The notes beneath the pieces are model-generated. The model saw only the letters and a program-made list of their open reading frames with translations, ran no database searches and was not told the DNA's origin. Below, piece by piece: positions 6,645 through 28,864 of a DNA stretch of 47,581 nt (position 1 is the first letter of the stretch; the number at the start of each line of letters is the position of its first letter). The stretch lies in assembly GCA_027451445.1 (NCBI GenBank), contig DAIDJG010000125.1, forward strand, positions 1-47,581. Reading direction: 5' to 3'. The stretch is from Singulisphaera sp. GTDB taxonomy: Bacteria; Planctomycetota; Planctomycetia; Isosphaerales; Isosphaeraceae. The position numbers were made by a program, and so were the translations under genes.

Positions 6645-9600
6645 TCACGGCTTCGCAAAGTACACTCGCGACGACACGCCCTTCGGGAAATAGCAGCCCA
6701 CGAATTGCTGGCGATTGCTTAGGGCGCGTACCTGTGCGTCGACGGCATTTTTGAACTGGTCGAGGGTGAGCGCGGAGCCTCGATTCGTGCGGGCGCTCGT
6801 TGCCCCGGAAGCTTCAAAGGCCTTCAGGATCGCCTCCGCGAAAATGCCGTGCTGCGACCTGGGATCGACATCGCTCGGCCCTTCTTTCGAGGCGATGAAG
6901 GTGATGACGCCGCGCTTGAGTTGAAGGTCGCGCACCCATTCCTTGACGTCGCTCTTAAAGCCGCCCTCGGGGAGTTGATGAACGCCGTCGAGGAAGACAA
7001 TCGTGCGACAGCCGTAGTTCGCCAGCTCCTCGAGTCGCTCTGAGAGCTCTGCGGCCGAAATTGACGGCCGCGGCAACGCGTCCTTCGCCGTATCGGTCGT
7101 GGTGATCAAGCCAACGTGTTCGAATTTAAGAACGTGAGACTCAACCACAAGTACAACGACGTCTTTCTCGTGCAGTTCCTTCTTCTCGACCTCTTCGCGG
7201 AGCTTGTCCATGTAGGCCACAAACGATTCGGCCGATGCCCGCTTGCCGGTCAGCACGACCTGGTCGTTGGGTTGCTTGCCGAAGGACTGGCTCGCGCTGA
7301 TGGGGATCAAGTGCTGCGCGAGAAATGAGGTCAAATCCTTCACGTCGTTCTCGGCGAACCTGACGGGTGGAAGTGCGTTACTCGGGAATTGCTCCGCACC
7401 CAGGCTCACGACCACTAAACGTGGCTTTTCCGGCGGCGGAGGCGGTGGCTTCGGCGGGCTGTAGAGGAGGTCCACGGCTTCGACGCGCGCATTCCCCTCT
7501 TCGTTGATACTCTTGACAGCCAGTCGGACAAGCCGGTTCGAGGGAAGCTGAAGCTCCAGCTCTTCGTTATACTTCTCGAGTGGTTCGCCCAGGGGGGCAC
7601 TCGGCAACAGTCGCTCATCAAAGAAAATCTGCCGGTCGCGGATCTTCGAGCGACCGCGAGCGGCGATGGCCACGCGCAGCCGCGGGGCCGCGACCGAGAC
7701 GTTCCAGTGGCCTTCAGCGGACGAGATCTTCATTGCCGGGTCGACGGTTCCAATCGTAATCGCCGGTGGTTGTGCGGCCTCAGCGATCGCCACAGGCGCC
7801 GGCGCTCGCGGTGGTAGAGTCGCGAGTGCCTGTCCCATGTTGGCCGTTCGCCAAAGCTGATCGAGCAGCACAGGCTGGCGCATTGTATCTGCGTAGGTGC
7901 TGATCGGTACGAAGTCGGTCGGGTTCGGCTGATCGAACCGCGGATTCGTCAGCCAACCGAGGAAGCGGCTGTCCCCCTCGATCGACGTGTCGTAATACCC
8001 TTGCGGCGTCCAGACGATCCATTCCTTGTCCAGGCCGGGAAACAGCGTGAGGGCCTGGCTATTGCGCTTGGTCGACGGCATCGGGTCGAGGTCGATCGGG
8101 AAAACACCCAGCCCTGGGACGTCCACCATCCGCCGCACGTAGATGCCCGTGATGAAGAGGCCGGGCGTCAGCGAATCGAGCCGTGTCACGAAGCGAGCGA
8201 GTTGATCGGGACCTTCGTACGTCTCCTTCGTGCTCAGGCTGGCGATTCCGGCCTTCATCACCTGGTCGCCGACCTGCAACCCCATCGCACGCGCGAAGCT
8301 TTGAGGGATCACGGACGTCACGATCCAGGCATTGCCCCTGCGTTCGATGGAAGCGCCGAACTTGGGGACGGTATCGCAACCCGCAAGCGGGTAGAACATC
8401 ACCATCTGGTCGACGGAACCGCTTGCGAGCCAACGCCCGTCAGGTGACGGGGCGAGCGCACTGATCGGCGCACTGTGGCCGACCAAAACGCGCGTTCGCT
8501 GACCCGTTTCCAAATCGTAGACAGTGATTCCCGTCTCGCAGCCGATCGCAAGCGTGGGCCGCGGATGACCCGGTCCGGGTGGGATAAACGTGTACGACCA
8601 CCAGAGTCGGTCGGTTGCCCGATTCAGGTCCGCCAGCCAGCGCCGGCCTGAATTGTGGACGGCCTCAAACCGATACGCGCTACTGTCAGCCGCGACGGTC
8701 CAGCCCTGGTACTGCTTGATCGCTCCCTGGAGCTGGTCGCGCGAAACGGCCTTGATGGCGCGGCGGCTGAGATCAAACCCCTCGTATTCCGGCAGCGCAT
8801 TGGGCGCACCGAGGGGGTCGTGCGTAAAGCCGATCGTCTGACTGTCGGCGGTGAAGCCCAGATCAAAGATCGTCGCCCCTTGCCCTTTGAGGGTGACCAG
8901 ACTCTGATCCCAGTTACTGAGATCACGGATGAAGATCGATTGCGACCGACCTCCCGAGTACGCGAGCCGGTCACCGGTAGGGCTGAACGCCAAAGTGCGA
9001 ACGAGACCGGGAACCCGGCGCGAGAATTCCAGGGTGCCCGTAGGGACAGATCGAAACTCCAGGTCGCACGCAAGGTTTGACGCGTCGAGCCCATCCCGCT
9101 TGTCACTCTTGATGCTAACCGCCAGATGCTTGCCGTCGCGCTGGAACGCGATGAACTCGACCGGTCCTTGTTCCGGTTTGGTCTTCCAGAGCGTTGGGCT
9201 GTTCTTGAGATTGTTGGCATCGAAACGGATCAACCGGCCGTTCTCATCGCCGGTGACGATCGTTGTGTCGTCCGGGCTAATGGCTACGGTGTTGTACGCG
9301 ATGGGGCGTCTGGCCGTGCTGAGCTGGGCGTCGATTATGACACCCCTGTCGAGATCCCAGACGCGGATCGACCCGTCGGCGCCCACCGAGACGAGACGGC
9401 GCGTCTTGTTGTAAAACGCCAGGGCTCGGACCGCCCCGGTATGGCCGGTCAGCGGCTTGAGCGGTCGCGACGTCGCCGCGTCCCAGATGATGATGGACCG
9501 ATCGTATTCATTGGCTCCCGACGCCAGCATCTTGCCGGAAGGGTCAAACGCAACGCACAACACTGAGTCTTGATGTCCACTCTCGTCCTTCTCGCCGCGC

Positions 9601-10049
9601 CTCATCAATCGGGCCAACGGTTCACCGGTCGCACTTCGATCGCGCCCCGGGAAGCGGAAGACCGTCATGTCCCCCCGCTTGTCCTGTACCCCGTAGCCGG
9701 CGACAACGAGACGGCTTTGGTCCACCTCGTTCGGCATCGGAGCCAGCGCCATCGTGTAGATCCAGCCCGCCGGCCCGCGCCAGATCGGCGGGCGAATCGT
9801 CTGGGCGAGCCGATTCCCATCGGCCAGGTCCCACACCTTGACGACCTTGTCTTCACCCGCGGAAAGCAAGCTGAACCGGTTCCGCCAGAGGAGCGCCCTC
9901 ACGGGCGCGTGATGCCCGTCCGTTTCAACGACGAGGATCGGCTTGCGGAAATCGCGCACTTCGTCCTGTGCGTGGACGGGGTGGAAACCGGCCCAACTCG
10001 TTGCCAGAAGAAGACCGACGGAGATCCGAACTCGCAGGCCCCTTGCCAT
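6645..10049 (-). CDS. Secreted WD40 / pseudo-caspase protein (catalytic Cys replaced by Val)
   Basis: I chose the ATG at 10049 because it gives a clear signal peptide (MARGLRVRISVGLLLATSW..., cleaved near HAQ) and follows AGGGAG; the longer frame to 10190 adds 47 residues with no export signal. The protein has 1134 residues. A WD40 array covers ~35-560, then comes a PDZ-like segment (AWIVTSVIPQSFARAMGLQVGD), a WIVWTPQGYYDTSIEGDSR linker, a proline-rich spacer (PPKPPPPPPEKP) and a C-terminal caspase fold (RLVVVSLGAEQFPSN onward). The GHG motif reads ESH (H972), and the DACHS motif reads FLDGVHQ with V1023 at the nucleophile position, so proteolysis is not expected. It shares its linker and fold order with the 923-5341 protein and is probably a paralogue acting as scaffold or decoy. 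Confidence 0.88.
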   Translation of the reverse strand: MARGLRVRISVGLLLATSWAGFHPVHAQDEVRDFRKPILVVETDGHHAPVRALLWRNRFSLLSAGEDKVVKVWDLADGNRLAQTIRPPIWRGPAGWIYTMALAPMPNEVDQSRLVVAGYGVQDKRGDMTVFRFPGRDRSATGEPLARLMRRGEKDESGHQDSVLCVAFDPSGKMLASGANEYDRSIIIWDAATSRPLKPLTGHTGAVRALAFYNKTRRLVSVGADGSIRVWDLDRGVIIDAQLSTARRPIAYNTVAISPDDTTIVTGDENGRLIRFDANNLKNSPTLWKTKPEQGPVEFIAFQRDGKHLAVSIKSDKRDGLDASNLACDLEFRSVPTGTLEFSRRVPGLVRTLAFSPTGDRLAYSGGRSQSIFIRDLSNWDQSLVTLKGQGATIFDLGFTADSQTIGFTHDPLGAPNALPEYEGFDLSRRAIKAVSRDQLQGAIKQYQGWTVAADSSAYRFEAVHNSGRRWLADLNRATDRLWWSYTFIPPGPGHPRPTLAIGCETGITVYDLETGQRTRVLVGHSAPISALAPSPDGRWLASGSVDQMVMFYPLAGCDTVPKFGASIERRGNAWIVTSVIPQSFARAMGLQVGDQVMKAGIASLSTKETYEGPDQLARFVTRLDSLTPGLFITGIYVRRMVDVPGLGVFPIDLDPMPSTKRNSQALTLFPGLDKEWIVWTPQGYYDTSIEGDSRFLGWLTNPRFDQPNPTDFVPISTYADTMRQPVLLDQLWRTANMGQALATLPPRAPAPVAIAEAAQPPAITIGTVDPAMKISSAEGHWNVSVAAPRLRVAIAARGRSKIRDRQIFFDERLLPSAPLGEPLEKYNEELELQLPSNRLVRLAVKSINEEGNARVEAVDLLYSPPKPPPPPPEKPRLVVVSLGAEQFPSNALPPVRFAENDVKDLTSFLAQHLIPISASQSFGKQPNDQVVLTGKRASAESFVAYMDKLREEVEKKELHEKDVVVLVVESHVLKFEHVGLITTTDTAKDALPRPSISAAELSERLEELANYGCRTIVFLDGVHQLPEGGFKSDVKEWVRDLQLKRGVITFIASKEGPSDVDPRSQHGIFAEAILKAFEASGATSARTNRGSALTLDQFKNAVDAQVRALSNRQQFVGCYFPKGVSSRVYFAKP

Positions 10050-10141
10050 AAGGCTCCCTTTATTCACGATGAGATTTATTTGGTTCCAAGCATCTGCCAT
10101 TCCGGCCGCTCCGCGACGAGCGCAGAGTGCCTCAAAGATAA

Positions 10142-10201
10142 CGGCCACAGCACTCTTCGCGTGACAGAGCCCGTGGCCGCACCTCAACATCCGGTGCGGC
10201 C
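10142..10201 (-). promoter_or_regulatory. Mutually exclusive hairpins between the GH51 and pseudo-caspase genes
   Basis: Two stems share sequence. CGGCCAC (10142-10148) pairs with GTGGCCG (10173-10179), and GGCCGCACC (10175-10183) pairs with GGTGCGGCC (10193-10201). They cannot form together. The region lies just after the GH51 stop and ~93 bases before the pseudo-caspase start on the same strand. It could be a terminator/antiterminator switch or only a processing hairpin. No U-tract follows either stem, which weakens the terminator reading. Confidence 0.35.
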
Positions 10202-13868: not shown

Positions 13869-13940
13869 TTGCGATGGGTGGAATCGAACCACCTACCTCC
13901 AGGTTATGAGCCTGGCGAGCTGCCGGTGCTCTACATCGCA
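13869..13940 (-). tRNA. tRNA-Met (anticodon CAT)
   Basis: The minus strand folds into a full cloverleaf. The acceptor stem is TGCGATG with CATCGCA, the D-stem GAGC with GCTC, the anticodon stem CCAGG with CCTGG around the loop CTCATAA, and the T-stem GGTGG with CCACC around TTCGATT. The discriminator is A and CCA is not encoded. The T1-A72 pair and the lack of three consecutive G-C pairs in the anticodon stem argue against initiator tRNA. A CAT anticodon can also be lysidine-modified tRNA-Ile2, which I cannot exclude. A terminator follows. Confidence 0.92.
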
Positions 13941-15990: not shown

Positions 15991-17469
15991 TCATTTCACT
16001 CCCGAGGCGCCAAGAAAGCTTTCGACGGCTTTCTGAAATGCCTCGGGAGCGCGACCGCCGAACGGCTTCGCACTATCGTACGAGCGGGGAAACGCCAGGG
16101 TCTCCGCCATCGTTTTGAGCGCATCCTTAGATTTCGTCGAAGGGACGTGGCCCTGATCGGCCAGGCCTTGATCGAGCGAAGCGACCGCCAGGTAGATTTG
16201 CACCAGGTGTTCCCAGTCCCAATGGGGGCTCGCCGCCGATGGGCGGGAGATGCGACCGACAAGGGAGCACAGATCGGCGGTCGTAAAGCGGTTTGCGTCC
16301 CGGGCCAGCCAGGCGCGCAACGGTTCCGATAAAGTTTGCGCCAGTCGTTCGATCTCGTGTGCGCGAGGTTCATCGCGAACCATCTCGCGACCGAGGAGCG
16401 CGAGCGGTCCGCTGGCTTCGTGATCGCCTCCCGCCGTCAGCAGTTCGGCCATGCCAACGTTCCCGCGGTTCCAGCGGAGTATCCCTGATTCCTCGCCGCT
16501 CTGCTGAAAGCCGTGCAACCAGCTCGGCTCCGCCAGGTCGTGGTGGCATGCGAAACACGAGTATTCGGATAACTCCGGCCAGGGCGCCACGGCGGTCGAA
16601 CCACGCTGATCTTTGATGCGCAGGCCATCGGCCTGGGACGCAACATGCCCGAGACGGTCGAGAGCCGTGACGGCCGAGACGACCTGCCCGATCGCCCACG
16701 CCCGCGCTTCGAAGTCGGGAGTGTCACGTTTCTCTTTCGCCACGTCCCAATGCTTGGGCAGGTTGGCGAGGTAGGAGGAGAACTCGAACAGGAGCCGGGG
16801 GTGGCCGGCGGCGATCAAGTCGTGGTCGACCCGGCGTCGTGCGTCTCCCACATGACAGCCTGCGCATTTCGTTGCCCGCACGACCAGGTCTGTCGTCAGC
16901 ACCATCCCAAGCTCGCGGCGCTCCTGATCGCTCGCGGCCCGATCCCGCCAGGACGACCAGTGAGCGTCGATCCAGCGCGCCGCGGGCCCGTGGCAACTCT
17001 CGCAGCTCACACCGTCTTCCAGCGAATACGTTGGTGCTTCGCGCGCTGACGTCGCGTCCTGCCGCACGTGACAGTCGAGGCAGCGTGAATCACGCTGGGG
17101 CGGAATCGGCTCCTTGTCCGGCCGCACGAGGTTGGCCGCGATCTGCTGCGAAAGGGCGTTCTCGAGGACGCCATACGCCCGTGAATGAGGGTCTCGCGTA
17201 CGCCAGGTCGTATAGGCGCTCGCGCTGCCGGCCTGCATCTCAGTGCCCCCATGGCAGCTCACGGCCGAGCACGAGGCTGCCCCCATCCAGTCGAATTCTG
17301 GGCGAGGGGTATCGTTGAAACCGCGTCGGCTTGGTTCGTGCGGCGTCGCACGAGCCGGCGGGCGGGACAAATTGATGGCCAGACCGACCACGAATGCGGC
17401 GCTTGCGATCGAGGAACACGCCACGAGCGTTTTCCGAAACGGTCGGTTTGCTCGCCATGCCGTGTTCAA
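15991..17469 (-). CDS. Pentaheme cytochrome c (c554/c-prime-like)
   Basis: I place the start at TTG 17469. It follows GGGGG and overlaps the TGA stop of the upstream ferredoxin gene (ATTGA), indicating translational coupling. This gives 492 residues with an N-terminal TM or signal anchor (VACSSIASAAFVVGLAINL); the frame to 17583 has no better start. Heme sites are CSAVSCH (CX4CH), CLDCH, CESCH, CAGCH and CFACH, five in all. The pattern resembles planctomycete cytochrome c554-like proteins. It should act outside the cytoplasmic membrane as an electron carrier, probably in one chain with the ferredoxin, decaheme and cytochrome-b-like products of the same cluster. Donor and acceptor are unknown. 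Confidence 0.88.
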   Translation of the reverse strand: MNTAWRANRPFRKTLVACSSIASAAFVVGLAINLSRPPARATPHEPSRRGFNDTPRPEFDWMGAASCSAVSCHGGTEMQAGSASAYTTWRTRDPHSRAYGVLENALSQQIAANLVRPDKEPIPPQRDSRCLDCHVRQDATSAREAPTYSLEDGVSCESCHGPAARWIDAHWSSWRDRAASDQERRELGMVLTTDLVVRATKCAGCHVGDARRRVDHDLIAAGHPRLLFEFSSYLANLPKHWDVAKEKRDTPDFEARAWAIGQVVSAVTALDRLGHVASQADGLRIKDQRGSTAVAPWPELSEYSCFACHHDLAEPSWLHGFQQSGEESGILRWNRGNVGMAELLTAGGDHEASGPLALLGREMVRDEPRAHEIERLAQTLSEPLRAWLARDANRFTTADLCSLVGRISRPSAASPHWDWEHLVQIYLAVASLDQGLADQGHVPSTKSKDALKTMAETLAFPRSYDSAKPFGGRAPEAFQKAVESFLGASGVK

Positions 17470-20400
17470 TCGTTCCCCCGATCGCTGAGTGCGGCAAGCT
17501 CCGTTCGAGCATCGATCCGCATCGCGGCGTCGTGCGGGCAGGCCTTCACACAGGCTGGATCTTGCCCGGGCAGGGAACTGCACAAGTCGCAGACGACTGC
17601 CTTCTCCTCGACGAGCTTCACCGATTCACTCTCCTCGTGGTCCAGGAAGAGTTCGAGAAGCTGATTGCAGTCTCCTCGCTTCGGCGTCACCTGAACCGCG
17701 ACAACGTTTTGGCGGGCGCGAAGATAGTGCGCCGGGAAACGCACTTCCACCTCGAATCCTCCCGCATCGCGACGCGACCTCGCCTTCGAGATTTCGACGT
17801 CCGCTTGCCCGCGGTCGGGGACGAGCGACGCGCCGTTCACCCAGAGGGCAGGGTTGTCATCGAGCGTGAGCAGAACCAATACGAAAAAATGTCCGGGTTC
17901 GAGGAGCCTCGGCTCCACATCGAAGCTGTATCGGAAGCACACGGCGCTCAATGTTCCCGGAGCGGCTCCGTCGAGTTCTTGAAGGGCCGCCTCGAAATCG
18001 CGGTCGTAAACGAACGGCGTGTGGCCTCGTGCCCAGGACCGGTCGCTACGACCCGGCTGAAACCAGTCGGCCGAGACCTTCGACGCCGGCTGATAGCACC
18101 AGCCGTAAGACGACCCCGGGATCACGCCTACAGGATGCATCTGGATCGACGCGTACGGGCACTGTTTCGCGCACGCCGCACAGCCGATGCACCAGTCTTC
18201 GATGATGATCTCGTTATTACCGCCTCGATGGATCGAACCGACAGGGCAGCCGATCATGCACACCGGATCGAGACAGGAGCGGCACGTCGCCGGAACGAGG
18301 TATTTGTTATCGGCATAGCGCGGGCCGTCCAGGTACAGCCGCGAGCGGCCGTCGTCGTGGCTCGACACACACGCGCTGACGCACTCATCGCAGCGCGTGC
18401 AGCGATCCAGGTCGATCAGCATCAGCTTCTGCCCCTGGATGAGACCTAGCTCCTCAGCCCGGCCTGTGTGGGCACGTGTCGGCGCCAGGGCTTTCGAGGC
18501 TCGGACGCGAAGGTTCTTCTCCTCGGAGACACGCCGCGTCACCTCGGCTTCGAGCTGAGCCCGGAAGGTCGGCGATTCTTGCTTGAGCTCTTCGAACAGG
18601 CCTTGGCTGATGCGGACGAGTTGGACCGTACCAACTTCGCGCTCCGGGTCGTCTTCCATGTGACCGAACGCCACGCACGAAGCGCGGCGGGGCTGACCGC
18701 TGAGCAGGGCCATTTCCCCCACGAACTCGCCCCTCGACCGATACGCGAGCGTCATCGGCGGACCAGAGGGGCGCTTGGAACCGGCTAATCCCCGCGGGAA
18801 AACGGCGTCGAGCAGCATGCGGTTGTAAGCCCGTGTGTAACGATCGAAGTCGTGCGGCGACCAGGTCTCTTCGTTGGGCAGGAACTTCTTGACAATGGCA
18901 GCTCCCTTCGCCGACCGCACGTGGTCCTGGAAATCGGGCTCGAGCAGGAAGGGTTTTACCTGGAGGATAGCGTTGAGCGCAGTGATGACCGCGTCCTTTT
19001 CCTCCGCGGATATCTCGAGCTCCGTTTTCACCGCGCTTTCCGCCGTTTTCTTGGGCAGCTTCTTCGCTTCGTCCGGTTTTTTGAGTGCCCGCTTCGCCCG
19101 GTCGGCAAGCGTCCGCACGGATTCGGGGAGCTGGTCCCACACGCGACGCCTCGGGTCGTGCGTTTTCTCGCTCCCATCGGCCAGGGCGGCGCAAAACGTC
19201 GTCCAGTCCGAAATCTCCCCGACCCGAAAGAGGTACGAGCCCTCCTCGTTCGGCTCGCTCGAAGCCCATACGGGAAACTTACTGAAGAGCGATTCAAGCA
19301 ATCGGCGCTGACAGCGATCCATATCGCGTTCCGCCCCCTTCAAGGAGGCGGAAAGGAGTCGCCAAACCTTCCGGCCTGCCCTGGAAGTGTGGGCCTCGTC
19401 GTGCAAGCGCGCCGATTCGACAAGTTGCGGGTCTTTGACCAGGACGTTAAGCGCGTCGATCGTCGCGCTCTTCCTTGCGTCGACTTTCGTGAAGGATCCC
19501 TGCACGGAATCGCCCAATGACGCGCGAAGCGATTCCGGCAGCAGTTGCCAAATGCGATGACTCGGTCCGGCGTCAGGAGTTCGTGCCGCCGCAAGCTCTT
19601 CCTGGAGCCCGACCCAGTCGGAGATGGCCCCCACGCTCAGGAGGTAAGAGACGTTCGTCATCACCTGGATGATCCCGCTGCGGATCAGGTGCATGCCGTC
19701 GGTGGCATCGTCGTTTTCGTCGTAGATCAGCGACCCGATGTCGCACTCCACAAGGTCCGCGTTGCGCCGGACGCGTTCCAGGAGGCGATCGTCGAGCAGG
19801 CTCATAATGGGAATCGCCCGAAGTTGCGACTCGAGCACGCGGTCGCGATAAAGCTGGTCGAGATGGGCCTTGAGCGTTGCGTCCCTGAGCATCATCTCGA
19901 GCACGTTGCGCAGCATCTCGAGCATGTAGCAGTCGCGCGTGGCAATCACCGTCGCGGACCGAGGAGTGCGATACCGGCAGCTCATCTCCCCGAACAGCTC
20001 GCCCTCGTTCAATACCCCAACGGGGCTGCCGTAGTTCAGATCCCTCGGACCATCGATGGGTATGAACGACGGCCGCGCACGGGCCGTACTACCCGTCCTG
20101 GCGAAGAGCGTGTCCTTCAACCGCGTGAAAAAGCCGGTCTTGTTCCGCGAGCTTGACCTCGGGACCGAGAGCCGGACATCGGCCACGCGTCGTAGCTCAT
20201 CGGCCACGGCAGCCGCCCGCAGCCATTGCGCCAACTCCGGTTCTGAGCTAGCGAGCGCATCGGCACGAGACCGCTTCTCGGCGGGATCCGCCGCGATCAA
20301 AGCTCGATACAAGGCCGCTCCTGCGGTATCTCCCTCGGCCGTTGCCCGTTGCCGCGCTTCCTCGAGTTTCTGACTCGCCTGGCGCCCCGCTTCGAGCACG

Positions 20401-20894
20401 GGCTCGGTCGTATCGGGTGTGTCCGAGAGAACGACCTCGCGCTTGAGGTACGGGAGAGCGACCTTATAGTTTTCGATCTTTTTATGCCATTCCTCAACCA
20501 GGGCCTCGGCTTCTTCGAGCTTGTCCTCAAGGCTCGCGACCTGCTTGGGATCGTTACCCGCTTCCTCGAGCTTCTGCTCCAGCTCCGCTTGTTTTTTCTG
20601 GGCCTTGGCCAGTTCCTCAGCCGCCAGCGGCAACTGGCGCTCGGCAGCATCGCGATACTCGACCAGTTCGCGCGTCGTCGGAATGTAAAACGCCGTCCAG
20701 CCCGGGTCCCCCTGGCGGCAAATGACCTCGCCCTTGGCAAACCGTCGAAGCCGCAACGAGCCCGGGAACTTGTGCAGGCTTGGCGCTGTCCTGAGCTGCG
20801 AGAACGGCGGCAGCTTCGGAAACAGGTCCTCGGGCACCAGGACATCATTGTCGCGGGGCTCGAGCTCAACTCGGGGATTGATGTTGCGGGCCAT
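17466..20894 (-). CDS. Cyclic-nucleotide-binding modules fused to a four-cluster ferredoxin
   Basis: 1142 residues from ATG 20894 (AGGAAAGG upstream). The N-terminal part holds cNMP-binding-like jelly rolls: one near 45-75 split by a coiled coil (~85-165), then NEGELFGEMSCRYRTPRSAT (~295), a degenerate one near 375-430, and GEFVGEMALLSGQPRRAS (~715-740). The last is the classic phosphate-binding cassette with its Arg. From ~820 comes a DmsB/NrfC-type ferredoxin with CTRCDECVSAC, CRSCLDPVCMIGCP, CIGCAACAKQCP and CDLCSSLPGQDPACVKACP: 16 Cys, enough for four [4Fe-4S] clusters. A beta-rich insert of ~170 residues separates clusters 3 and 4. No signal peptide is seen. It probably passes electrons under cAMP/cGMP control, and a cyclase gene lies 6 kb away. 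Confidence 0.88.
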   Translation of the reverse strand: MARNINPRVELEPRDNDVLVPEDLFPKLPPFSQLRTAPSLHKFPGSLRLRRFAKGEVICRQGDPGWTAFYIPTTRELVEYRDAAERQLPLAAEELAKAQKKQAELEQKLEEAGNDPKQVASLEDKLEEAEALVEEWHKKIENYKVALPYLKREVVLSDTPDTTEPVLEAGRQASQKLEEARQRATAEGDTAGAALYRALIAADPAEKRSRADALASSEPELAQWLRAAAVADELRRVADVRLSVPRSSSRNKTGFFTRLKDTLFARTGSTARARPSFIPIDGPRDLNYGSPVGVLNEGELFGEMSCRYRTPRSATVIATRDCYMLEMLRNVLEMMLRDATLKAHLDQLYRDRVLESQLRAIPIMSLLDDRLLERVRRNADLVECDIGSLIYDENDDATDGMHLIRSGIIQVMTNVSYLLSVGAISDWVGLQEELAAARTPDAGPSHRIWQLLPESLRASLGDSVQGSFTKVDARKSATIDALNVLVKDPQLVESARLHDEAHTSRAGRKVWRLLSASLKGAERDMDRCQRRLLESLFSKFPVWASSEPNEEGSYLFRVGEISDWTTFCAALADGSEKTHDPRRRVWDQLPESVRTLADRAKRALKKPDEAKKLPKKTAESAVKTELEISAEEKDAVITALNAILQVKPFLLEPDFQDHVRSAKGAAIVKKFLPNEETWSPHDFDRYTRAYNRMLLDAVFPRGLAGSKRPSGPPMTLAYRSRGEFVGEMALLSGQPRRASCVAFGHMEDDPEREVGTVQLVRISQGLFEELKQESPTFRAQLEAEVTRRVSEEKNLRVRASKALAPTRAHTGRAEELGLIQGQKLMLIDLDRCTRCDECVSACVSSHDDGRSRLYLDGPRYADNKYLVPATCRSCLDPVCMIGCPVGSIHRGGNNEIIIEDWCIGCAACAKQCPYASIQMHPVGVIPGSSYGWCYQPASKVSADWFQPGRSDRSWARGHTPFVYDRDFEAALQELDGAAPGTLSAVCFRYSFDVEPRLLEPGHFFVLVLLTLDDNPALWVNGASLVPDRGQADVEISKARSRRDAGGFEVEVRFPAHYLRARQNVVAVQVTPKRGDCNQLLELFLDHEESESVKLVEEKAVVCDLCSSLPGQDPACVKACPHDAAMRIDARTELAALSDRGND

Positions 20895-21051
20895 CAATGC
20901 GCCTTTCCTGGGCGAGACACGACCCCTGCGTCAAATTCAGGTGGCTCGGCCCTCCGGCCAGAAACCACTCTTGCCAACGACGGAACAGCTTACCAGTGGC
21001 AAACATGCCGAACGGGAAGGATAGCAAATCCCTGTCTCGGGGAGCATCGCG

Positions 21052-21216
21052 CTACTTCGCTGCTCGGGAAATCAGGCACGCCGCGTGTCCGAGAACGACG
21101 TCACCGTCGACCGTGGGGGTGGCGGTTGGCGACCAGCCGCGCGCGAGCCGGGCCTCCAATAACTCATCCGCGGAAGGCGGATGACCCCAGACGGCGACCG
21201 CCGTCACAACCCCGAA
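21052..21216 (-). pseudogene. In-frame continuation of the small gene beyond its TGA
   Basis: After the TGA at 21217-21219 the same frame stays open for 54 more codons to TAG (21052-21054) and reads like protein (VTAVAVWGHPPSADELLEAR, GWSPTATPTVDGDVVLGHAA). It has no strong start of its own; GTG 21208-21206 with GGGG before it is possible. I believe related planctomycete proteins run through this point with a Cys, which would make the TGA a nonsense mutation or a recoded codon. A GACGGC/GCCGTC hairpin (21190-21205) begins 11 nt after the TGA. Confidence 0.6.
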
Positions 21217-21444
21217 TCAGGTCGAGTCGTAGACCAGCCACAGGTCACCCGAGTATGCCACGAGAGTGTCGTGGCTGAACTCGTCCTGCGTGACCATACC
21301 TGTCGGACCCAAAGGTGGGTCATGCGCTGCCAGCCAGTCGATGGCATGTTTGATCGAGCGCTGGCGACCCAAAGCGGCTGCGATGTGTGTGAAATCGTCA
21401 GTGTTGAGGGCGGAACGGTTTTCGATGGGAATAACCGTTTCCAC
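21217..21444 (-). CDS. Small planctomycete-type hypothetical protein, cut by an in-frame TGA
   Basis: 75 residues from GTG 21444 (GGAGCG upstream). It resembles a small conserved planctomycete protein, judging from AIDWLAAHDPPLGPTGMVTQ and FSHDTLVAYSGDLWLVYDST; this is recalled family character, not a search. No signal peptide or TM segment. It ends at TGA 21217, but the frame continues coherently to 21052, so the ancestral protein was probably ~130 residues. It lies between the decaheme cytochrome and the ferredoxin genes on the same strand. Function unknown. Confidence 0.65.
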   Translation of the reverse strand: METVIPIENRSALNTDDFTHIAAALGRQRSIKHAIDWLAAHDPPLGPTGMVTQDEFSHDTLVAYSGDLWLVYDST

Positions 21445-21751
21445 TCGGCGCTCCGGGACTCATCGCCGGCAGTTACAATCGTACGCGCGACGGAGATGAT
21501 GGAAGAGGTGTGCCGTGGTGGATTGCGACACAGAGGTGAGGCGCTCTCGCACGCGAGATTAGCTGTTCAAAACAGCACCCTGACGCCCCAGGTCATTACC
21601 ACCTCGGAAACCTGGTACTTGGGCCAGTCGTCTACCACCACGGCACATAACAATCATTACACCGAGACGCACAAAGTCAACGAGATTCTCCGCACGCCAC
21701 ACCCGTTTCATTCAAGATCATTCCGTCCGGGTCAAAACCCGTGGTTCGCGG
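21445..21751. other. Intergenic stretch inside the redox cluster
   Basis: About 307 bases between the decaheme cytochrome stop and the small gene. No convincing ORF. On the minus strand TTGACT (21680-21675) and TAATGA (21659-21654) could be promoter boxes, but the 15-base spacer is short, so I do not call a promoter. Confidence 0.35.
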
Positions 21752-23188
21752 TCACTCCTTCGAACGGACGGCTCGACCATGCTCGCGTAGCAACGCTTCA
21801 ATCGACAGACTTCCTGTCCACGCTGGCTCTGCGGCGGCAGGGTGGTAACGATGGCACTCCGTGCAGTCGGCCCTGGCGGCGGACCGCTCCGGCTTGTGGC
21901 ACTGTTGACACACGCCGATCCGCGGCATGAGGATCTGTGAAGTTTCCGCGCTCTGGCTCACGCCCGCGTGGCATTGCTGGCAATCGAGAGCGCGGTGGCG
22001 CTCGTGGTCGAAGATGCTGTGCGGAAGCCAGCGAGCCTTGATGCCGGGTGCGAAGGACGGTAAATCGCCAGCCTTGGGATCCTTGGCAGGCAACTCTTGA
22101 TGGCAGTAGAGACAACCGGCCTTGTTCCGAAACAGTGCGTGTTCAGCCTGCTTGAGCTGATCGCCGACCCAGTTCCATGCCTCGGTCGTCGCGGGCTCAC
22201 CGACGCGTTCGCGGCGGCCGGGAATCACCCTGCGGGGCTGTTCGGCGGACCGTTCACCCAGTACGGCGGGGTTGTCCTGCAGGAATCGCACGTAACGCTC
22301 TCGAAGCACCGCACGAACGGTCGCGGCATTTTCACCGCGCTGGGGGTGCGGAATCGGGCTCTCGGCGAATGCGATCGCCGCCTCGCGAAGACGACTGTCA
22401 TCCGACGTCCCCGCGACCCCAGCCTTCAGAGGATGGCACTCGGCGCAGTGGCGGTCGTAAGCGATCGACCGCATATAGCGGCGGTCCGCATCCGGCTCGT
22501 GACAGCGGTCGCACGAGAGGACCCGCAACCGACGATCCTCACCGACTGGGATTCCGCGCGGGTTGAGGTGTTTCTCATGGTTGAAGAGGATTGTCCCCTC
22601 GTCTCTTACACCCGGTTTCCAGAGGGCGAACTCTGGATGTCCCCTGGGCGTGAACGCACCGACGTTCCGAAACGAGCGCTCGCCCTCGCGGGGCTGGTGC
22701 GGATCGAGATGCAGGTTGAGGTCGGCATGACATGAGGTACATGATTGAGAATCCACCTGTGCCAGCAAGTTCTCCGACCTGTGCTCGCGATGGCAAGACG
22801 CGCATGCAGTCTCACCGACTTGCCGGCGGTGGTGAACGGGCCCCGGATGGCACTTCAAGCAGGACGCGTCGGCGACCGAGTGGACGCCGCTATCGCCGTG
22901 CCAGAGCCGTTTCGCGGTTTCGAAGCCGCGCGTGTGACAGGCGTTGCAGTCGTCGTTGATCAAGCGGTGGACCCGGGAGACAGGTCCCGCCTGAAACGCC
23001 CGCCGGTCGCGCGTGCTCAGCAAGAACAACCCGACACATCCCAGGCTGAGCACGAAGACCGCTGCGGAAAGGGCTCTCCGCCCCGCGCGCAAGGCCCCGG
23101 GGCGCCGGAAGTAATCCAGCTCGAGCCAATGAGGCAGCTCTTTGGGGTACTCGGATCGCGTCTTCGAATCACGCAGGGAAGGGAGCAT
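21752..23188 (-). CDS. Decaheme cytochrome c, membrane-anchored
   Basis: 478 residues. An N-terminal TM segment (AAVFVLSLGCVGLFLLS, ~45-62) anchors the protein with the heme part outside. Ten CxxCH sites are visible in order: CNACH, CLKCH, CASCH, CTSCH, CDRCH, CAECH, CLYCH, CQQCH, CQQCH and CTECH. Extra His residues, such as those around DPHQP, FNHEKHL and FDHERH, can serve as distal ligands, as in c7/c3-type multiheme proteins. It lies 31 bases after the cytochrome-b-like gene, so they are surely one operon. Its likely role is to take electrons from the quinone-linked membrane subunit and pass them on in the periplasm or to the outer surface. Confidence 0.9.
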   Translation of the reverse strand: MLPSLRDSKTRSEYPKELPHWLELDYFRRPGALRAGRRALSAAVFVLSLGCVGLFLLSTRDRRAFQAGPVSRVHRLINDDCNACHTRGFETAKRLWHGDSGVHSVADASCLKCHPGPVHHRRQVGETACASCHREHRSENLLAQVDSQSCTSCHADLNLHLDPHQPREGERSFRNVGAFTPRGHPEFALWKPGVRDEGTILFNHEKHLNPRGIPVGEDRRLRVLSCDRCHEPDADRRYMRSIAYDRHCAECHPLKAGVAGTSDDSRLREAAIAFAESPIPHPQRGENAATVRAVLRERYVRFLQDNPAVLGERSAEQPRRVIPGRRERVGEPATTEAWNWVGDQLKQAEHALFRNKAGCLYCHQELPAKDPKAGDLPSFAPGIKARWLPHSIFDHERHRALDCQQCHAGVSQSAETSQILMPRIGVCQQCHKPERSAARADCTECHRYHPAAAEPAWTGSLSIEALLREHGRAVRSKE

Positions 23189-23219: not shown

Positions 23220-24095
23220 TCAGTAATAAAGCGATAGTACAACATGCAGGACGCCCAGAATGAGCAGGAGCACCGACAGCGGAACGTGGACGAGCAGCCA
23301 GGCGTGGAGCACGTGCTGGAGTCGTTGTTGTTCCCCGAGCGACCGCCGCTCGTTGCAGAGCGTCTCGAGCACTTCCAGGAGTTCCCGGTTCTTGGGCACC
23401 TGGGCGAGTTCCCGCAGGTCGGCAAACTTGCTCGCGGCGAACAAGGAGTCGGCGAATCCAGACGTCCGGCGGTAGTCGACTCCCAGGAACTGGCGCACGC
23501 CACTCTCGTAAAATGCGCGGACGCGCCTCCTCTCGTCCTCAACGGATCCCAGCGTATTGCCATCCTCGGTCGAAACCGCGGCAGCCTCGTAGCGTCCGCA
23601 AACCTCGTCCATCAGCGCATCGGCCTTGCGCCGCAAGAGGGTGCAGAGATGAGGAATCTGCTCGTAAGGCGTCTCCATGACGATACGCCGGGAAAGCATC
23701 CTCGGCACGATATTCTGCAGCAGGAGGCCCAGAACGCCCGTCGCTAGAATCAGGATCAGGACGATCCAGAGGCCGAATTCGACGGGTCCTCCCCAGCGAA
23801 AACCGCTGTGAAAGAGGATGAGCAACGCGCTCAGCGATCCGAGCCAGATGTGTCCCTTCAACCACGTCGCACGCCGGCCGATCCGCCACCACGAGGGAAG
23901 TTTTCGGTGCAGGCACAGCAAACCGGCGTAAACCATCAGCGCCGAGCCAAGAATCCCATACCAGAGGCCAACCGCGCTCCCGCCTGTCAGACCCCTGGGG
24001 CTTCGAAAGCTGAACCAGCCATAAATCAGAGAGGCCACGAATGCGCAGCCGATCGTGGCGAAACACCACCGCTTCTGCCGCCGATCGATCAGCAA
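23220..24095 (-). CDS. Membrane cytochrome-b-like protein
   Basis: About 291 residues from TTG 24095, preceded by GGAG at 8 bases; the frame runs to 24236, so a longer N-terminus is possible. TM segments appear at the start (FATIGCAFVASLIYGWF), GLWYGILGSALMVYAGLLCL, KGHIWLGSLSALLILFHSGF, FGLWIVLILILATGVLGLLL, and near the end HVPLSVLLLILGVLHVVLSL. His pairs in the third and last segments (GHIW...FH, VLHAWLLVH...LH) are good heme-b ligands. A long soluble loop lies between TM4 and the last TM. It probably exchanges electrons between quinone and the decaheme cytochrome encoded directly after it. Confidence 0.78.
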   Translation of the reverse strand: MLIDRRQKRWCFATIGCAFVASLIYGWFSFRSPRGLTGGSAVGLWYGILGSALMVYAGLLCLHRKLPSWWRIGRRATWLKGHIWLGSLSALLILFHSGFRWGGPVEFGLWIVLILILATGVLGLLLQNIVPRMLSRRIVMETPYEQIPHLCTLLRRKADALMDEVCGRYEAAAVSTEDGNTLGSVEDERRRVRAFYESGVRQFLGVDYRRTSGFADSLFAASKFADLRELAQVPKNRELLEVLETLCNERRSLGEQQRLQHVLHAWLLVHVPLSVLLLILGVLHVVLSLYY

Positions 24096-24390
24096 GACGA
24101 CGACTCCGCAAGGGCGTTTCGCATGCGCGCTGCCAGGACCTTGCAATCCAGGCCAACAGAAGCCGAGAGCGTGTTGTGATAGAATCGTTGCAACCGCACC
24201 GCGTGCACTCCTCGTGGGTGTTCCGTAGCGCTGCACATCTCGACAACCATAACGGATAGCACGTTCGACGCAAGGTGTGAGCCAAAGTCTAAGGTCTAAA
24301 GACCGCTACAGGCGATTTGACCCTGCGGCGGGCCGCAGAAGTTGATTGTGGTTCAATTCTCGCTTCGCCTTCGAGCGCGCAGAAAGGACG
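24096..24390. other. Divergent intergenic region
   Basis: About 295 bases between the start of the minus-strand redox cluster and the plus-strand signalling genes. It should hold both promoters. I see no operator palindrome strong enough to list. Confidence 0.4.
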
Positions 24391-25614
24391 ATGCCGACCG
24401 CGATAAGTGAGAGCACACTTGCCATCAAGCGTGCTCCGGCGGTCGACGACAATCCGACGAAGCGCTTGATCCTGGAAGAAGTTCTGGCACACTGGAGCAT
24501 TCGAGCTGTCGAGGTGGACAGCGGCCCTGCGGCGCTCCGAGTTTTGGAAGAAGCCGCTCAGTTGGGTGAGCCGTTTCAGGTTGTCTTACCCGACCAGCAA
24601 ATGCCGGAGCTGGACGGGCTGTCCTTGGCTGAGCAAGTTCGAGGCAACGACCGTATCGCGACCACCAAGATGCTCCTTTTAACCTCGGACGTTGGTCCGG
24701 AAGACGCGATCCGGTGTCGCGCGCTCGGGATCAGCGCCTGCCTCACGAAGCCTGTGCGGCATTCGGAGCTCATGAACGCTTTGATGGACCTGTTTCGCGT
24801 TTGCGAAGGCCCCGCTGATCGGTTGGAACGCGAAGTGCTTGACACCCAGCGCACGGAATGCCCGAATGGTTTCGCCAGCCAACGGCTTCGCATCCGGTTG
24901 GCCGAGGATCATCCGATCAATCAGATCGTTGCAGTACGCATGCTCGAGACATCTGGCCACCACGTGACGGTTGCTTGCGACAGGAGTGTTGCACTGGCCA
25001 GGCTGGAAAGCGACTGTTTTGACGTCGTTCTTATGGATGTGCAAAAGCCAGAGATGGATGGATCCAAGGCGGCGGCGACCCGGCAAAAGGAGGCCCACTC
25101 CGGGAGGCACATTCCGATAGTTGCGTTAACCGCACAGGCGATGAAGGGGGACCGCGAGCACTGCCTGGAGAGCGGCTTTGAACGCTACTCGGCGACGCCG
25201 GTTCAGGAAATGGAGCTGCGTGCGACGTTGGGCGTGGTGACTGCGGGGCACAATGGTGGTCACGATTCCCATGGGCGTCCTTTCATCACGGGTCTGCTCG
25301 AACAATGCGGCGACGACGAAGGTTTTGCCCGTGAGCTCGCGTCATCATTCCTGAAGACGGCGCCAGCATCCCCCGACGCAATGACGGAAGCGCGGGCGGC
25401 GGATAACTCGGTGGAAATCGGTACAACGGCGCATCGCCGCAAGGGCGCCTGTCCGACCATCGGCGCCGTGGACTTTGCTGAGGCCTGCGGACTTCTGGAT
25501 GCCGCAGGCCACCTCGATGACGAGGAAGCGGTGCGAATCGCGTTCGATGCCGTTCGCGAGGCCTGGGAACCGCTCAAGCAAGTTCTCGAAAGACTTATAG
25601 GTGAGAGGGCATGA
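24391..25614 (+). CDS. REC-REC-Hpt response-regulator-like protein, no kinase domain
   Basis: 407 residues from ATG 24391 (AAAGGA just upstream); TTG 24346 is an alternative. REC1 has the acidic pair D19/D20, D68 (VVLPDQQMPELDG), T99 and K120 (CLTKP), so it can probably be phosphorylated. REC2 has D216 (VVLMDVQKPEMDG) and T247, but the Lys is replaced (YSATPV, T269). An Hpt domain follows with the phosphorylatable H348 (AHRRKGACPTIGA). This is the C-terminal half of a BarA-type hybrid histidine kinase without its sensor and ATPase parts, so it is either a phosphorelay adaptor or a truncated remnant. Its stop overlaps the diguanylate cyclase start by 4 bases. Confidence 0.82.
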   Translation: MPTAISESTLAIKRAPAVDDNPTKRLILEEVLAHWSIRAVEVDSGPAALRVLEEAAQLGEPFQVVLPDQQMPELDGLSLAEQVRGNDRIATTKMLLLTSDVGPEDAIRCRALGISACLTKPVRHSELMNALMDLFRVCEGPADRLEREVLDTQRTECPNGFASQRLRIRLAEDHPINQIVAVRMLETSGHHVTVACDRSVALARLESDCFDVVLMDVQKPEMDGSKAAATRQKEAHSGRHIPIVALTAQAMKGDREHCLESGFERYSATPVQEMELRATLGVVTAGHNGGHDSHGRPFITGLLEQCGDDEGFARELASSFLKTAPASPDAMTEARAADNSVEIGTTAHRRKGACPTIGAVDFAEACGLLDAAGHLDDEEAVRIAFDAVREAWEPLKQVLERLIGERA

Positions 25615-26561
25615 AAGTATTAATTGCCGAAGACAACGCCCCGTCGGCTTTGTACCTGCGCCGCACGCTCGAGAGTTTGGGGCATCAAGTCATCGTCACC
25701 CTGGACGGTGAGCAGGCGTGGGAGGTGATCCAGAAAGAGCGAGTGCCTCTGTTGATCTCGGACTGGATGATGCCCAGGATGGACGGCCTCGAGCTCTGCC
25801 GCCGAATTCGAGGTCGAGTCGGTTGTGACTACACCTACATCATCCTGCTGACGTTGAAACACCTCCGCGAGGAGCGTCTGGAAGGTTTACGCGCGGGTGC
25901 CGACGACTTCATTACCAAACCGCCCCATCCTGACGAATTGGCCATTCGCATGGAGATCGCCGGCCGCATTCTGGGCGTCCAGGAGGCGCTCGCGCGACAG
26001 AACGCGCGGCTCGCCGAGCTCGCCACGACCGACGACTTGACGGGCCTCAAGAACCGTCGCCGGTTCCACGAGGACCTGAACGTTTTCTTCTCACTCTCGG
26101 CGCGTCGGTCGGAGCCGCTTTCGCTGGTGATGATCGACCTCGACCAGTTCAAGGCGTACAACGACTCGTTCGGCCACCCCGCGGGCGACCTGATCCTCAG
26201 CGCCCTGGCGGAGATTCTGCGGGAGAACATCCGCGAGCATGACGTGGCCGCACGCTACGGCGGCGAGGAATTCGTGGTCCTGCTCCCATCAACCGACGCC
26301 CACGAGGCGAACGCTCTTGCCGAACGACTTCGGGAGCGGATCGAAAACCGAGGTTGGCCGCTTCGAGGCGTGACCGCCAGCCTCGGCGTCGCCACCTCGG
26401 GGCCGACGATCGCAAGCATCGAAGCCCTCATCGAGGCTGCCGATCAGGCGCTTTACCTCGCGAAGCGGAAAGGGCGCAATCGCGTCTGCCGGTACGACCC
26501 CACCGTCGAAGGGACACCCCACGCCGGAACGCGTCGGCCGGTCGGGCCCTGGATCGGGTGA
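25611..26561 (+). CDS. Response regulator diguanylate cyclase (REC-GGDEF)
   Basis: 316 residues. The receiver domain (1-120) has phosphoacceptor D51 (LLISDWMMPRMDG), T81 and K103 (FITKPP). A helical linker leads to a GGDEF domain with TTDDLTGLKNRR, MIDLDQFKAYND and an intact GGEEF (217-221). RxxD (REHD, 208-211) lies exactly five residues before it, a normal inhibitory I-site. So it should make c-di-GMP when phosphorylated and be product-inhibited. It overlaps the REC-REC-Hpt gene by ATGA, so the two are translationally coupled and may be phosphorelay partners. PilZ, a likely c-di-GMP reader, is encoded 2.3 kb away. Confidence 0.95.
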   Translation: MKVLIAEDNAPSALYLRRTLESLGHQVIVTLDGEQAWEVIQKERVPLLISDWMMPRMDGLELCRRIRGRVGCDYTYIILLTLKHLREERLEGLRAGADDFITKPPHPDELAIRMEIAGRILGVQEALARQNARLAELATTDDLTGLKNRRRFHEDLNVFFSLSARRSEPLSLVMIDLDQFKAYNDSFGHPAGDLILSALAEILRENIREHDVAARYGGEEFVVLLPSTDAHEANALAERLRERIENRGWPLRGVTASLGVATSGPTIASIEALIEAADQALYLAKRKGRNRVCRYDPTVEGTPHAGTRRPVGPWIG

Positions 26562-26762: not shown

Positions 26763-28523
26763 TCATTTCTGCCCTAGCACGTAGACTGGGTCGAACGCCT
26801 TCGGTGCGCCTTTCAGGCACTCGATGCAGCGGCCGAGCAGCGCCAGCGTTGGCATATCGAAATCCTTATCATGCCCGCCCAGAAGCGGGTAAAGCGTGCG
26901 ACAGGCCGCGGCCCACTGTCCAGCCTCATACAGGGCGAGCCCGGATTGGTACGCATCCCGGAACCGGCTCCACGCATCGTCCGTCTCGGCCGCATGGAGC
27001 TCATACAACGCGACGATCCCGTCGATCCCCACGACCCGCGCACGGCAAAGCCTGCGCGTGGCGAACGCCCCCCCCAGGCGAGCATGAGTCGTTTCGGTAA
27101 CCAGAATCGGGACCCCCAACTGCTTGGTCGCACCCTCCACGCGACTCGCCAGGTTCACGGCATGCCCTTGCGGACCGTACATGAACTTCGACTTGCTCCC
27201 CGTATTCCCCACCAGGGCCTGGCCGGTGTTCAATCCGATGCCAACGCTGATCGTGCCGCCGAGCCGGTCCTTCCAGAGAAGATCCAGCTTCGGCAGCTCG
27301 GCACGCATCGACAGCGCTGCGCGGCAGGCGAGGAGCGCGTGCTCGGGCTGGTCGGCCGGCGCGTTCCAGAGCGCCATCATGCCGTCGCCGCTGTAGGCAA
27401 CGACCGTGCCTCCAAACTCGCGCACGCGCTCGGTCAAACGGTCCATGATGTCTTGTGCGAGCGAGCAGACCTCGCGCGGAGTGAGTCGTTCCGAGAACCG
27501 CGAGAACCCGCGCAGGTCGCTGAACAGAATGGTCACCTCGCGTTCCCGCCCTTCCAGCAGGTTCGGGTCGCGGTCGAGCTCGCGTGCCAGCTCCGTGGAG
27601 AAGAACTGCTCAAACTGAACCCTCCGGCGGGCCGCGTCGGCCTCGCTCTGCACCCGCGCGAGACCCGCCCCCACCGACGCCGCGAGCACTTGCACAAGCT
27701 GCGCTTCGAGCGGGCGAATCCCCAGTCCCGCTGAGCCCATGCGGCGCAACCGGGCTCCATAGACGATCCCGACAACCGCTTCGTTTTCATTAAAGACCGG
27801 CGCAGCCACCACGGCCCCCAACCCCATGAGGCTGCGCGTTGCCGAGTCGCCGGAAGGATCCTGGTAAAACGTCACGCGTTCTTGAAACACGCGATCAACA
27901 ACGGTCTGGCTGTAACCCGATTCGACCGTCGCATCCGCCTCGTGCCGCGCCAGGATCTCCCAACGATTCTCGCGCCGAAGCAAGACCAGGCCAAAATCCA
28001 GCCCGATCATCTCGACCACGGCGCGAGCCGTCTGGCGAAAGAACTCGCCCGAAGACGCCGACGCGCGCTGCACCAGCACCAGCGCTTCGAACCAACGCGC
28101 CAGCATCTCGGCGCTCACCTGCGTCTCGCCGAGCGCGAAACTACCGATCGTCTGGGTGACACCCGGCCGGATCGGCTTCGCGATCGTCCGCAGGTTGTCT
28201 TCGGCCGCAGCTTCCTGCGTTTCCTCGATCTGAAGAATCGTCTCGCCGAGCGTCAATCGAACCGGAGAGGGAAGCTCCCGGTTCATGCCGGGCTGCAAGG
28301 TCTCGCCACTCGCCAGGTTGACCGGCACCTTTTTACTCAGGTTTTCGATCCGAACCTTGCCCGCCGCCAGCTCCTCGATCCGCAAGTGATCGCCGGACAC
28401 ATAAAGATCCGGCAGAACCTTGCGGGGAGTCAACCCCTGGGGATTGCGGCCAAAGATCAGTGGCCCCCGATCGTGGTTGCAGCGCTCTTGATTGTTCTTA
28501 TACGATATATAGATCGTGAGCAT
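26763..28523 (-). CDS. FHA-GAF class III adenylate/guanylate cyclase
   Basis: 586 residues from ATG 28523; the frame continues to 28745, but the extra 74 residues look non-coding. Domains: an FHA fold (~1-110, LIFGRNPQG and DLYVSGDHLRIEE), a GAF domain (~150-310), a coiled linker (~310-330) and a class III cyclase domain. The two metal Asp are in LFSDLRGFSRFSE and YSGDGMMALWN, and FMYGPQGHAVNLASR carries the Asn and Arg of the active site, so it should be active. cAMP is more likely than cGMP but this is not certain. It is cytoplasmic. The FHA part suggests control by a Ser/Thr kinase, and the neighbouring cNMP-binding ferredoxin is an obvious effector. Confidence 0.9.
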   Translation of the reverse strand: MLTIYISYKNNQERCNHDRGPLIFGRNPQGLTPRKVLPDLYVSGDHLRIEELAAGKVRIENLSKKVPVNLASGETLQPGMNRELPSPVRLTLGETILQIEETQEAAAEDNLRTIAKPIRPGVTQTIGSFALGETQVSAEMLARWFEALVLVQRASASSGEFFRQTARAVVEMIGLDFGLVLLRRENRWEILARHEADATVESGYSQTVVDRVFQERVTFYQDPSGDSATRSLMGLGAVVAAPVFNENEAVVGIVYGARLRRMGSAGLGIRPLEAQLVQVLAASVGAGLARVQSEADAARRRVQFEQFFSTELARELDRDPNLLEGREREVTILFSDLRGFSRFSERLTPREVCSLAQDIMDRLTERVREFGGTVVAYSGDGMMALWNAPADQPEHALLACRAALSMRAELPKLDLLWKDRLGGTISVGIGLNTGQALVGNTGSKSKFMYGPQGHAVNLASRVEGATKQLGVPILVTETTHARLGGAFATRRLCRARVVGIDGIVALYELHAAETDDAWSRFRDAYQSGLALYEAGQWAAACRTLYPLLGGHDKDFDMPTLALLGRCIECLKGAPKAFDPVYVLGQK

Positions 28524-28864
28524 CTTAACAATACGTCGCCGAGCGCCGAGGTCGGTCAGCTTCCGTGGGCTGTCCACACCACCCAATGATATCAGTCGTG
28601 GCACTCGGGAACCAGCGGACGAGGCGTTGCTCGGTTCCGACCGCTCACCAACGGAAGAAGCGGCGAGCGTCGTACCGCCTCCCGGTCCCACGATCAGAAC
28701 CTGGTCCTCGGCGAGGCTGCCGCTGGCGTAGTCCCGTGCGGTCACCCCGACTGCCGAAGAGGCTCCGCGACCGGGAACCGCTCAGCGCAATAGCCGCGGC
28801 GACGTTTTGAGAGAGGAGGTGGCTGTCGAGCCTTTTTGCCAACCCCCGGAGCGAGCAAGGCGCG
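28524..28864. other. Intergenic stretch upstream of the cyclase gene
   Basis: About 340 bases. The frame of the cyclase stays open through most of it, but no start there has a better ribosome-binding site. A small GGCT/AGCC hairpin followed by TTTTT lies near 28821-28837 on the plus strand, with no plus-strand gene before it. Confidence 0.4.

Follow-up and report, generated by a model that had tools for sequence, protein, structure and literature searches.

The window, by which we mean the whole 47,581-nucleotide stretch of Singulisphaera sp. DNA analysed here, carries on its minus strand a single intact open reading frame (17466–20897) for a protein, P0001, that joins two cyclic-nucleotide-binding (CNB) domains to a four-cluster ferredoxin (Table 1). 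The ATG at 20894, with AGGAAAGG immediately before it, is the likely start, in agreement with the end of the gene given in a preliminary description of this DNA. The order along the chain is CNB1, CNB2 and then the ferredoxin, which has an insert between clusters 3 and 4. A Pfam scan finds cNMP_binding over two stretches (E 1.5e-20; PF00027 at 73.3 bits against a curated cut-off of 27.5) together with several Fer4 models, and the AF2 model of the entire chain has a mean pLDDT of 82.9 and a pTM of 0.77. The preliminary description had proposed a fusion of CNB modules and ferredoxin in one chain, on which domain search, intact reading frame and model all agree. Because the same architecture is found in relatives from dozens of genera and the whole-chain model is confident, the fusion is not due to chance.

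Table 1. Features of the CNB-ferredoxin gene and of the genes near it (positions in the window)
Feature	Position	Strand	Basis and remarks
Tetraheme cytochrome c554-type protein, membrane-anchored	15991..17469	-	Cytochrome_C554 E 1.8e-10, 4 CXXCH
CNB-CNB-ferredoxin, P0001	17466..20894	-	~1143 aa; host Isosphaeraceae; ORF, Pfam, AF2 model
Ferredoxin cluster motif IV (residues 1098-1130)	17508..17606	-	Cys positions, HycB alignment
Jelly-roll insert (residues 924-1095)	17613..18128	-	Resembles GH2 sugar-binding domain (beta-galactosidase family)
Ferredoxin cluster motifs I-III (residues 825-922)	18132..18425	-	Pfam; HycB-like fold 7z0s_B
CNB2 second part, cassette GEFVGEMALLSGQPRRASC, C-terminal helix into ferredoxin	18498..18764	-	Cassette conservation, 5bv6 match
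CNB2 insert, mostly helical (residues 416-711)	18765..19652	-	AF2 model, comparison with relatives
CNB2 first part (residues 363-415)	19653..19811	-	AF2 model, structural match
CNB1 second part, cassette GELFGEMSCRYRTPRSATV	19815..20030	-	Pfam 292-338
CNB1 insert, helical coiled coil (residues 76-288)	20034..20672	-	AF2 model, comparison with relatives
CNB1 first part (residues 25-75)	20673..20825	-	Model strands 48-71; phmmer match to CNB channel mll3241 22-72
Decaheme cytochrome c, one N-terminal membrane anchor	21752..23188	-	10 CXXCH; Cytochrome_C7; conserved neighbour
Four-helix membrane protein, predicted diheme cytochrome b	23220..24236	-	Conserved His pairs H129/H143, H317/H331
GAF / FHA-like class III nucleotide cyclase	26763..28526	-	Guanylate_cyc E 1.6e-18, GAF

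Where several CRP-like CNB folds had been described, there are two, and the appearance of more arises because each is split by a long insert; additional CNB domains were rejected, the extra stretches being these inserts. Both inserts sit at the corresponding place, upstream of the phosphate-binding cassette. That of CNB1 is mostly 44–145 aa long in relatives outside the subclade of the window protein, and that of CNB2, not present in compact relatives, carries a duplicated element (YLLSVGAISDW..IWQLLPES / YLFRVGEISDW..VWDQLPES). The cassettes themselves contain E304 and R313 in CNB1 (coded at 19947–20003) and E728 and R737 in CNB2 (coded at 18675–18731). A Crp-type regulator was also considered and rejected: the Pfam scan of the protein finds no HTH family, and so no C-terminal helix-turn-helix DNA-binding domain of Crp/Fnr type, and the C terminus of CNB2 leads into the ferredoxin.

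The modelled CNB folds of the window protein and of a compact relative (L119:9968–11632) superpose on cAMP- or cGMP-bound domains of PKG, PKA, SthK and HCN (Z 17–20), with matches to 5bv6 (Z 19.9 and 17.0) and 4d7t (Z 19.8, 1.6 Å); the absence of a cNMP-binding pocket, an outcome that the preliminary description had allowed for, was not seen. CNB2 of the window protein (residues 346–797) aligns with cGMP-bound PKG II CNB-B (5bv6) at Z 17.0 and 2.3 Å over 148 residues, the alignment threading past the ~290-residue insert. In the AF2 model of L119 the CNB domains are of high confidence and are closest to PKA regulatory subunits and to cAMP- or cGMP-bound PKG and SthK, the tandem arrangement being best matched by PKA regulatory subunits (1ne4, E 2.8e-17); as the ferredoxin part of this model is poor (pLDDT mostly <60), the CNB part alone was used.

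The residues expected to contact a ligand are strongly conserved. Among ~105 distinct family members the cassette Glu and Arg are retained in 96/100 and 101/101 for CNB1 (E304, R313) and in 99/105 and 102/105 for CNB2 (E728, R737), that is at 94–100%, while pairwise identity across the CNB domains averages 41%. In nearly all CNB1 domains the Arg is followed by Ser or Thr, and in CNB2 domains mostly by Ser, Thr or Asn, a pattern like that of E. coli CRP (Arg-Ser-Ala) and also of cGMP-binding domains. E728 is replaced by Leu in compact forms of one family (f2: L032, L033, L034 and L038), and as the CNB fold survives this loss, retention of the Glu in the other members is informative. We consider it likely that the CNB-ferredoxin binds a cyclic nucleotide.

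The ferredoxin part contains exactly the 16 cluster cysteines previously counted, in four 4-Cys motifs (833/836/839/843, 872/875/880/884, 903/906/909/913 and 1103/1106/1116/1120). The earlier assignment to the DmsB/NrfC type holds for these motifs but not for the subunit type, since the NCBIfam equivalog scores lie far below their cut-offs (TIGR02951, DmsB, 38.8 vs 214.1 bits; TIGR03149, 31.1 vs 377.6 bits), and a true DmsB/NrfC subunit was rejected. By Pfam, no molybdopterin catalytic subunit or NrfD-type anchor is present among the four proteins of the window operon, the partners being cytochromes. The ~170-residue beta-rich insert between clusters 3 and 4 is present in the window protein (172 aa), but as an optional subclade feature, carried by roughly one family member in four, rather than as part of the core design. 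It gives a profile match to 6hpd (E 6e-7) and Foldseek matches to beta-galactosidases, and Pfam finds Glyco_hydro_2_N in 3 of 12 sequences; the role of the insert is probably structural.

Three cytochrome or cytochrome-like genes accompany the CNB-ferredoxin. The TTG start of the tetraheme cytochrome gene overlaps the CNB-ferredoxin stop codon, and the decaheme protein has homologues of which 65/72 carry exactly ten CXXCH motifs. The four-helix membrane protein, whose true start is probably near 24090, has two His pairs with 14-residue spacing (H129/H143 in 59/60 and H317/H331 in 53/60 sequences), a pattern that suggests a diheme cytochrome b. The operon of the window combines the parts by which a transmembrane multiheme conduit is recognized, namely a predicted membrane heme protein and periplasmic multiheme c cytochromes, and the set of CNB-ferredoxin, diheme-type membrane protein, decaheme and c554 proteins recurs in Planctomycetota, Acidobacteriota and Wallbacteria. 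An 857-bp spacer (20895–21751) separates the CNB-ferredoxin gene from that of the decaheme protein; close relatives (e.g. L059) have the two side by side. The spacer contains small ORFs, among them one of 75 aa on the minus strand (21217–21444), and may be an insertion.

Candidate electron donors are encoded beside the CNB-ferredoxin in many relatives. NuoEF (Complex1_51K, 2Fe-2S_thioredx and NADH_4Fe-4S) is found in 25 of 108 loci, and other loci have an NDH-2 carrying its own C-terminal CNB or an FNR-type reductase. Two NADH dehydrogenases of the NDH-2 type with such a C-terminal CNB lie near the CNB-ferredoxin, at L042:11095–12873 and L119:17409–19052. No NAD(P)H module is adjacent to the gene in the window, and NuoEF-like and NDH-2-like genes occur elsewhere in the same genome.

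The fusion itself is widespread. In a survey of the kind envisaged in the preliminary description, 65 of the 294 genomes sampled from the phylum carry the family at a strict cut-off, and at least 565 family stretches are confirmed in a species-genome collection; among 59 related genomes 48 have matches, of which ~31 are true members as judged from match extents and the others are other ferredoxins. Most members are from Planctomycetota, with others in Acidobacteriota, Wallbacteria and on Sphingobium plasmids, and the closest copies of the window protein are in a genome of the same genus (G001, 65% identity). The core, CNB-CNB-ferredoxin, is 500–580 aa long, and the long CNB inserts and the jelly-roll insert are specific to a subclade. 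One variant (L045) has an added HoxU/NuoG-like N terminus with 2Fe-2S and 4Fe-4S motifs. In Sphingobium a Pyr_redox (pyridine-nucleotide flavoprotein) domain is fused at the N terminus; plasmid AP027325.1 (L141) encodes this as a single Pyr_redox-CNB-CNB-ferredoxin chain, near which are a cytochrome b561-like gene, an FHA-like decaheme gene and a CpdA-like phosphoesterase. RefSeq names the protein only as 'cyclic nucleotide-binding domain-containing protein', and no description of it was found in the open-licence literature on CNB domains with ferredoxin, 4Fe-4S, multiheme, NDH-2 or planctomycetes.

The family shows linkage to a class III nucleotide cyclase, by position as well as by presence or absence. 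In the window its likely start is the ATG at 28526, with the ORF extending to 28745; the FHA assignment comes from reading the sequence and from likeness to relatives, Pfam calling FHA only in L119. Although the 20 genomes checked have only 1–5 cyclase domains each, 13 of them have one no more than ~17 kb from the CNB-ferredoxin, where 0.25 would be expected (P ~1e-20), a figure that assumes uniform placement and independent genomes and is inflated by shared descent, with the 17 kb limit chosen after the data were seen; 12 of the 13 lie within ~10 kb. The linked cyclases occupy varying positions, on either side and either strand, and lie inside the operon in L118 and L119. Within the host family, full-length cyclases of the window type (E ≤1e-60) occur in 20/21 genomes with CNB-ferredoxin vs 2/16 without (Fisher 2.7e-7, likewise inflated by shared ancestry). 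Both the architecture and the cyclase linkage are real and strong. In the window cyclase the Lys that usually selects the substrate is missing (YSGDG context) and the Tyr is followed by Gly; across the subfamily of this cyclase, the orthologues included, the Lys is replaced by Ala, Asp or Asn, and YGPxG stands in place of the usual Thr/Asp after Tyr. The Sphingobium operon also has a metallophosphoesterase, named cAMP phosphodiesterase CpdA in one record, an automatic annotation where RefSeq gives only metallophosphoesterase. Between cyclase and operon, two response-regulator genes (24346–26561) diverge from the operon; the second encodes a receiver-GGDEF diguanylate cyclase, so that two kinds of nucleotide-cyclising enzyme lie next to the operon.

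From these gene parts we infer a flow of electrons from NAD(P)H through ferredoxin and heme b to the decaheme protein, and we propose, as the best and a fairly probable explanation, that the ferredoxin is regulated by a cyclic nucleotide and supplies a transmembrane conduit with electrons. In this model the linked cyclase would make the cyclic nucleotide, be it cAMP, cGMP or another, which the two PKA-regulatory-subunit-like CNB domains would bind; binding would shift the helix that runs from CNB2 into the ferredoxin and would thereby alter, with either sign, docking of the ferredoxin or electron transfer. The donor would be an NAD(P)H flavoprotein (NuoEF, NDH-2, an FNR-type enzyme or a fused FAD domain), in the window a separate, unlinked one, and electrons would pass through up to four 4Fe-4S clusters to the diheme-b-like membrane protein and from there to the periplasmic decaheme and tetraheme cytochromes c. 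Direct control of electron transfer by the nucleotide is the single explanation that fits best, with somewhat better than even chances. We give about even odds to the broader proposal of a natural and widespread class of second-messenger-gated conduits, in which a ferredoxin taking electrons from NAD(P)H towards the periplasm would be switched directly by the product of its dedicated cyclase.

It is also conceivable, if unlikely, that the CNB domains bind cyclic nucleotide yet govern assembly, membrane docking or protein lifetime and not electron flow. In PKA and HCN, CNB domains work by releasing or arranging partners, and the CNB insert sizes differ widely among clades, as those of scaffolding parts might; on the other hand, the C-terminal helix of CNB2 goes directly into the ferredoxin and the CNB2-ferredoxin order is constant in all aligned clades. 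More doubtful still is that the CNB domains are structural relics with no ligand and that the cyclase serves other targets. Many proteins with the CNB fold, such as FNR and EAG channels, bind no cyclic nucleotide, and the CNB2 Glu is lost in some Pirellulaceae-type forms, but the Glu and Arg of CNB1 are almost invariant although the fold tolerates loss in CNB2, and relic domains would leave the cyclase linkage unexplained. Least probable is a reversed or parallel signal, with the ferredoxin reporting redox state, the CNB domains acting as signalling sink or sensor and respiration ungated, for while cyclase and ferredoxin are linked and the cyclase has a GAF domain that might respond to redox or small molecules, the close grouping of donor modules with acceptor cytochromes in one operon suits electron transfer better than a pure sensor.

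The regulated ferredoxin that we propose would share parts with several known systems. With PKA regulatory subunits, PKG, SthK and HCN, its best structural matches, it has in common the single or tandem CNB fold and intact phosphate-binding cassettes, but the effector there is a kinase or channel and here a ferredoxin, and in the window protein, unlike these, both CNB domains are split by long inserts. HydN, HycB and DmsB subunits have the four 4-Cys motifs and HycB-like fold but not the CNB fusion, and the window operon encodes no molybdo-enzyme partner among its proteins. Fusions of NDH-2 or FAD oxidoreductases to CNB, which adjoin the CNB-ferredoxin in some relatives, also pair a redox enzyme with a CNB domain, but are single flavoenzymes rather than a wire of several clusters leading to a membrane cytochrome. 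Conduits of the CymA, CbcL and ImcH type likewise consist of a membrane heme step and periplasmic multiheme cytochromes, whereas the system here has in addition a linked cyclase and, in the cytoplasm, a ferredoxin module that carries second-messenger domains.

Respiratory electron flow is normally controlled through gene expression, substrate supply or redox state. If our proposal is correct, second-messenger control of an electron-transfer protein would provide a fast post-translational valve with which a signalling molecule may turn an electric-like current on or off, a redox counterpart of cyclic-nucleotide-gated ion channels, and planctomycete class III cyclases would gain a concrete target. 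Engineered ferredoxins, in which domain insertion gives small-molecule control of electron transfer (PMC11886610 and references therein), are man-made, whereas the CNB-ferredoxin would be a natural case, and would offer bioengineers, who at present construct ligand-gated ferredoxins by hand, a template from nature. The compact relatives (~550 aa) make the idea testable.

Elsewhere in the window there are large WD40 proteins (923–5341, 6645–10190 and 35331–38870), of which one has a caspase-type peptidase domain and one a protein kinase domain, and a single tRNA gene on the minus strand (13869–13940), which is the only Rfam match in the window.
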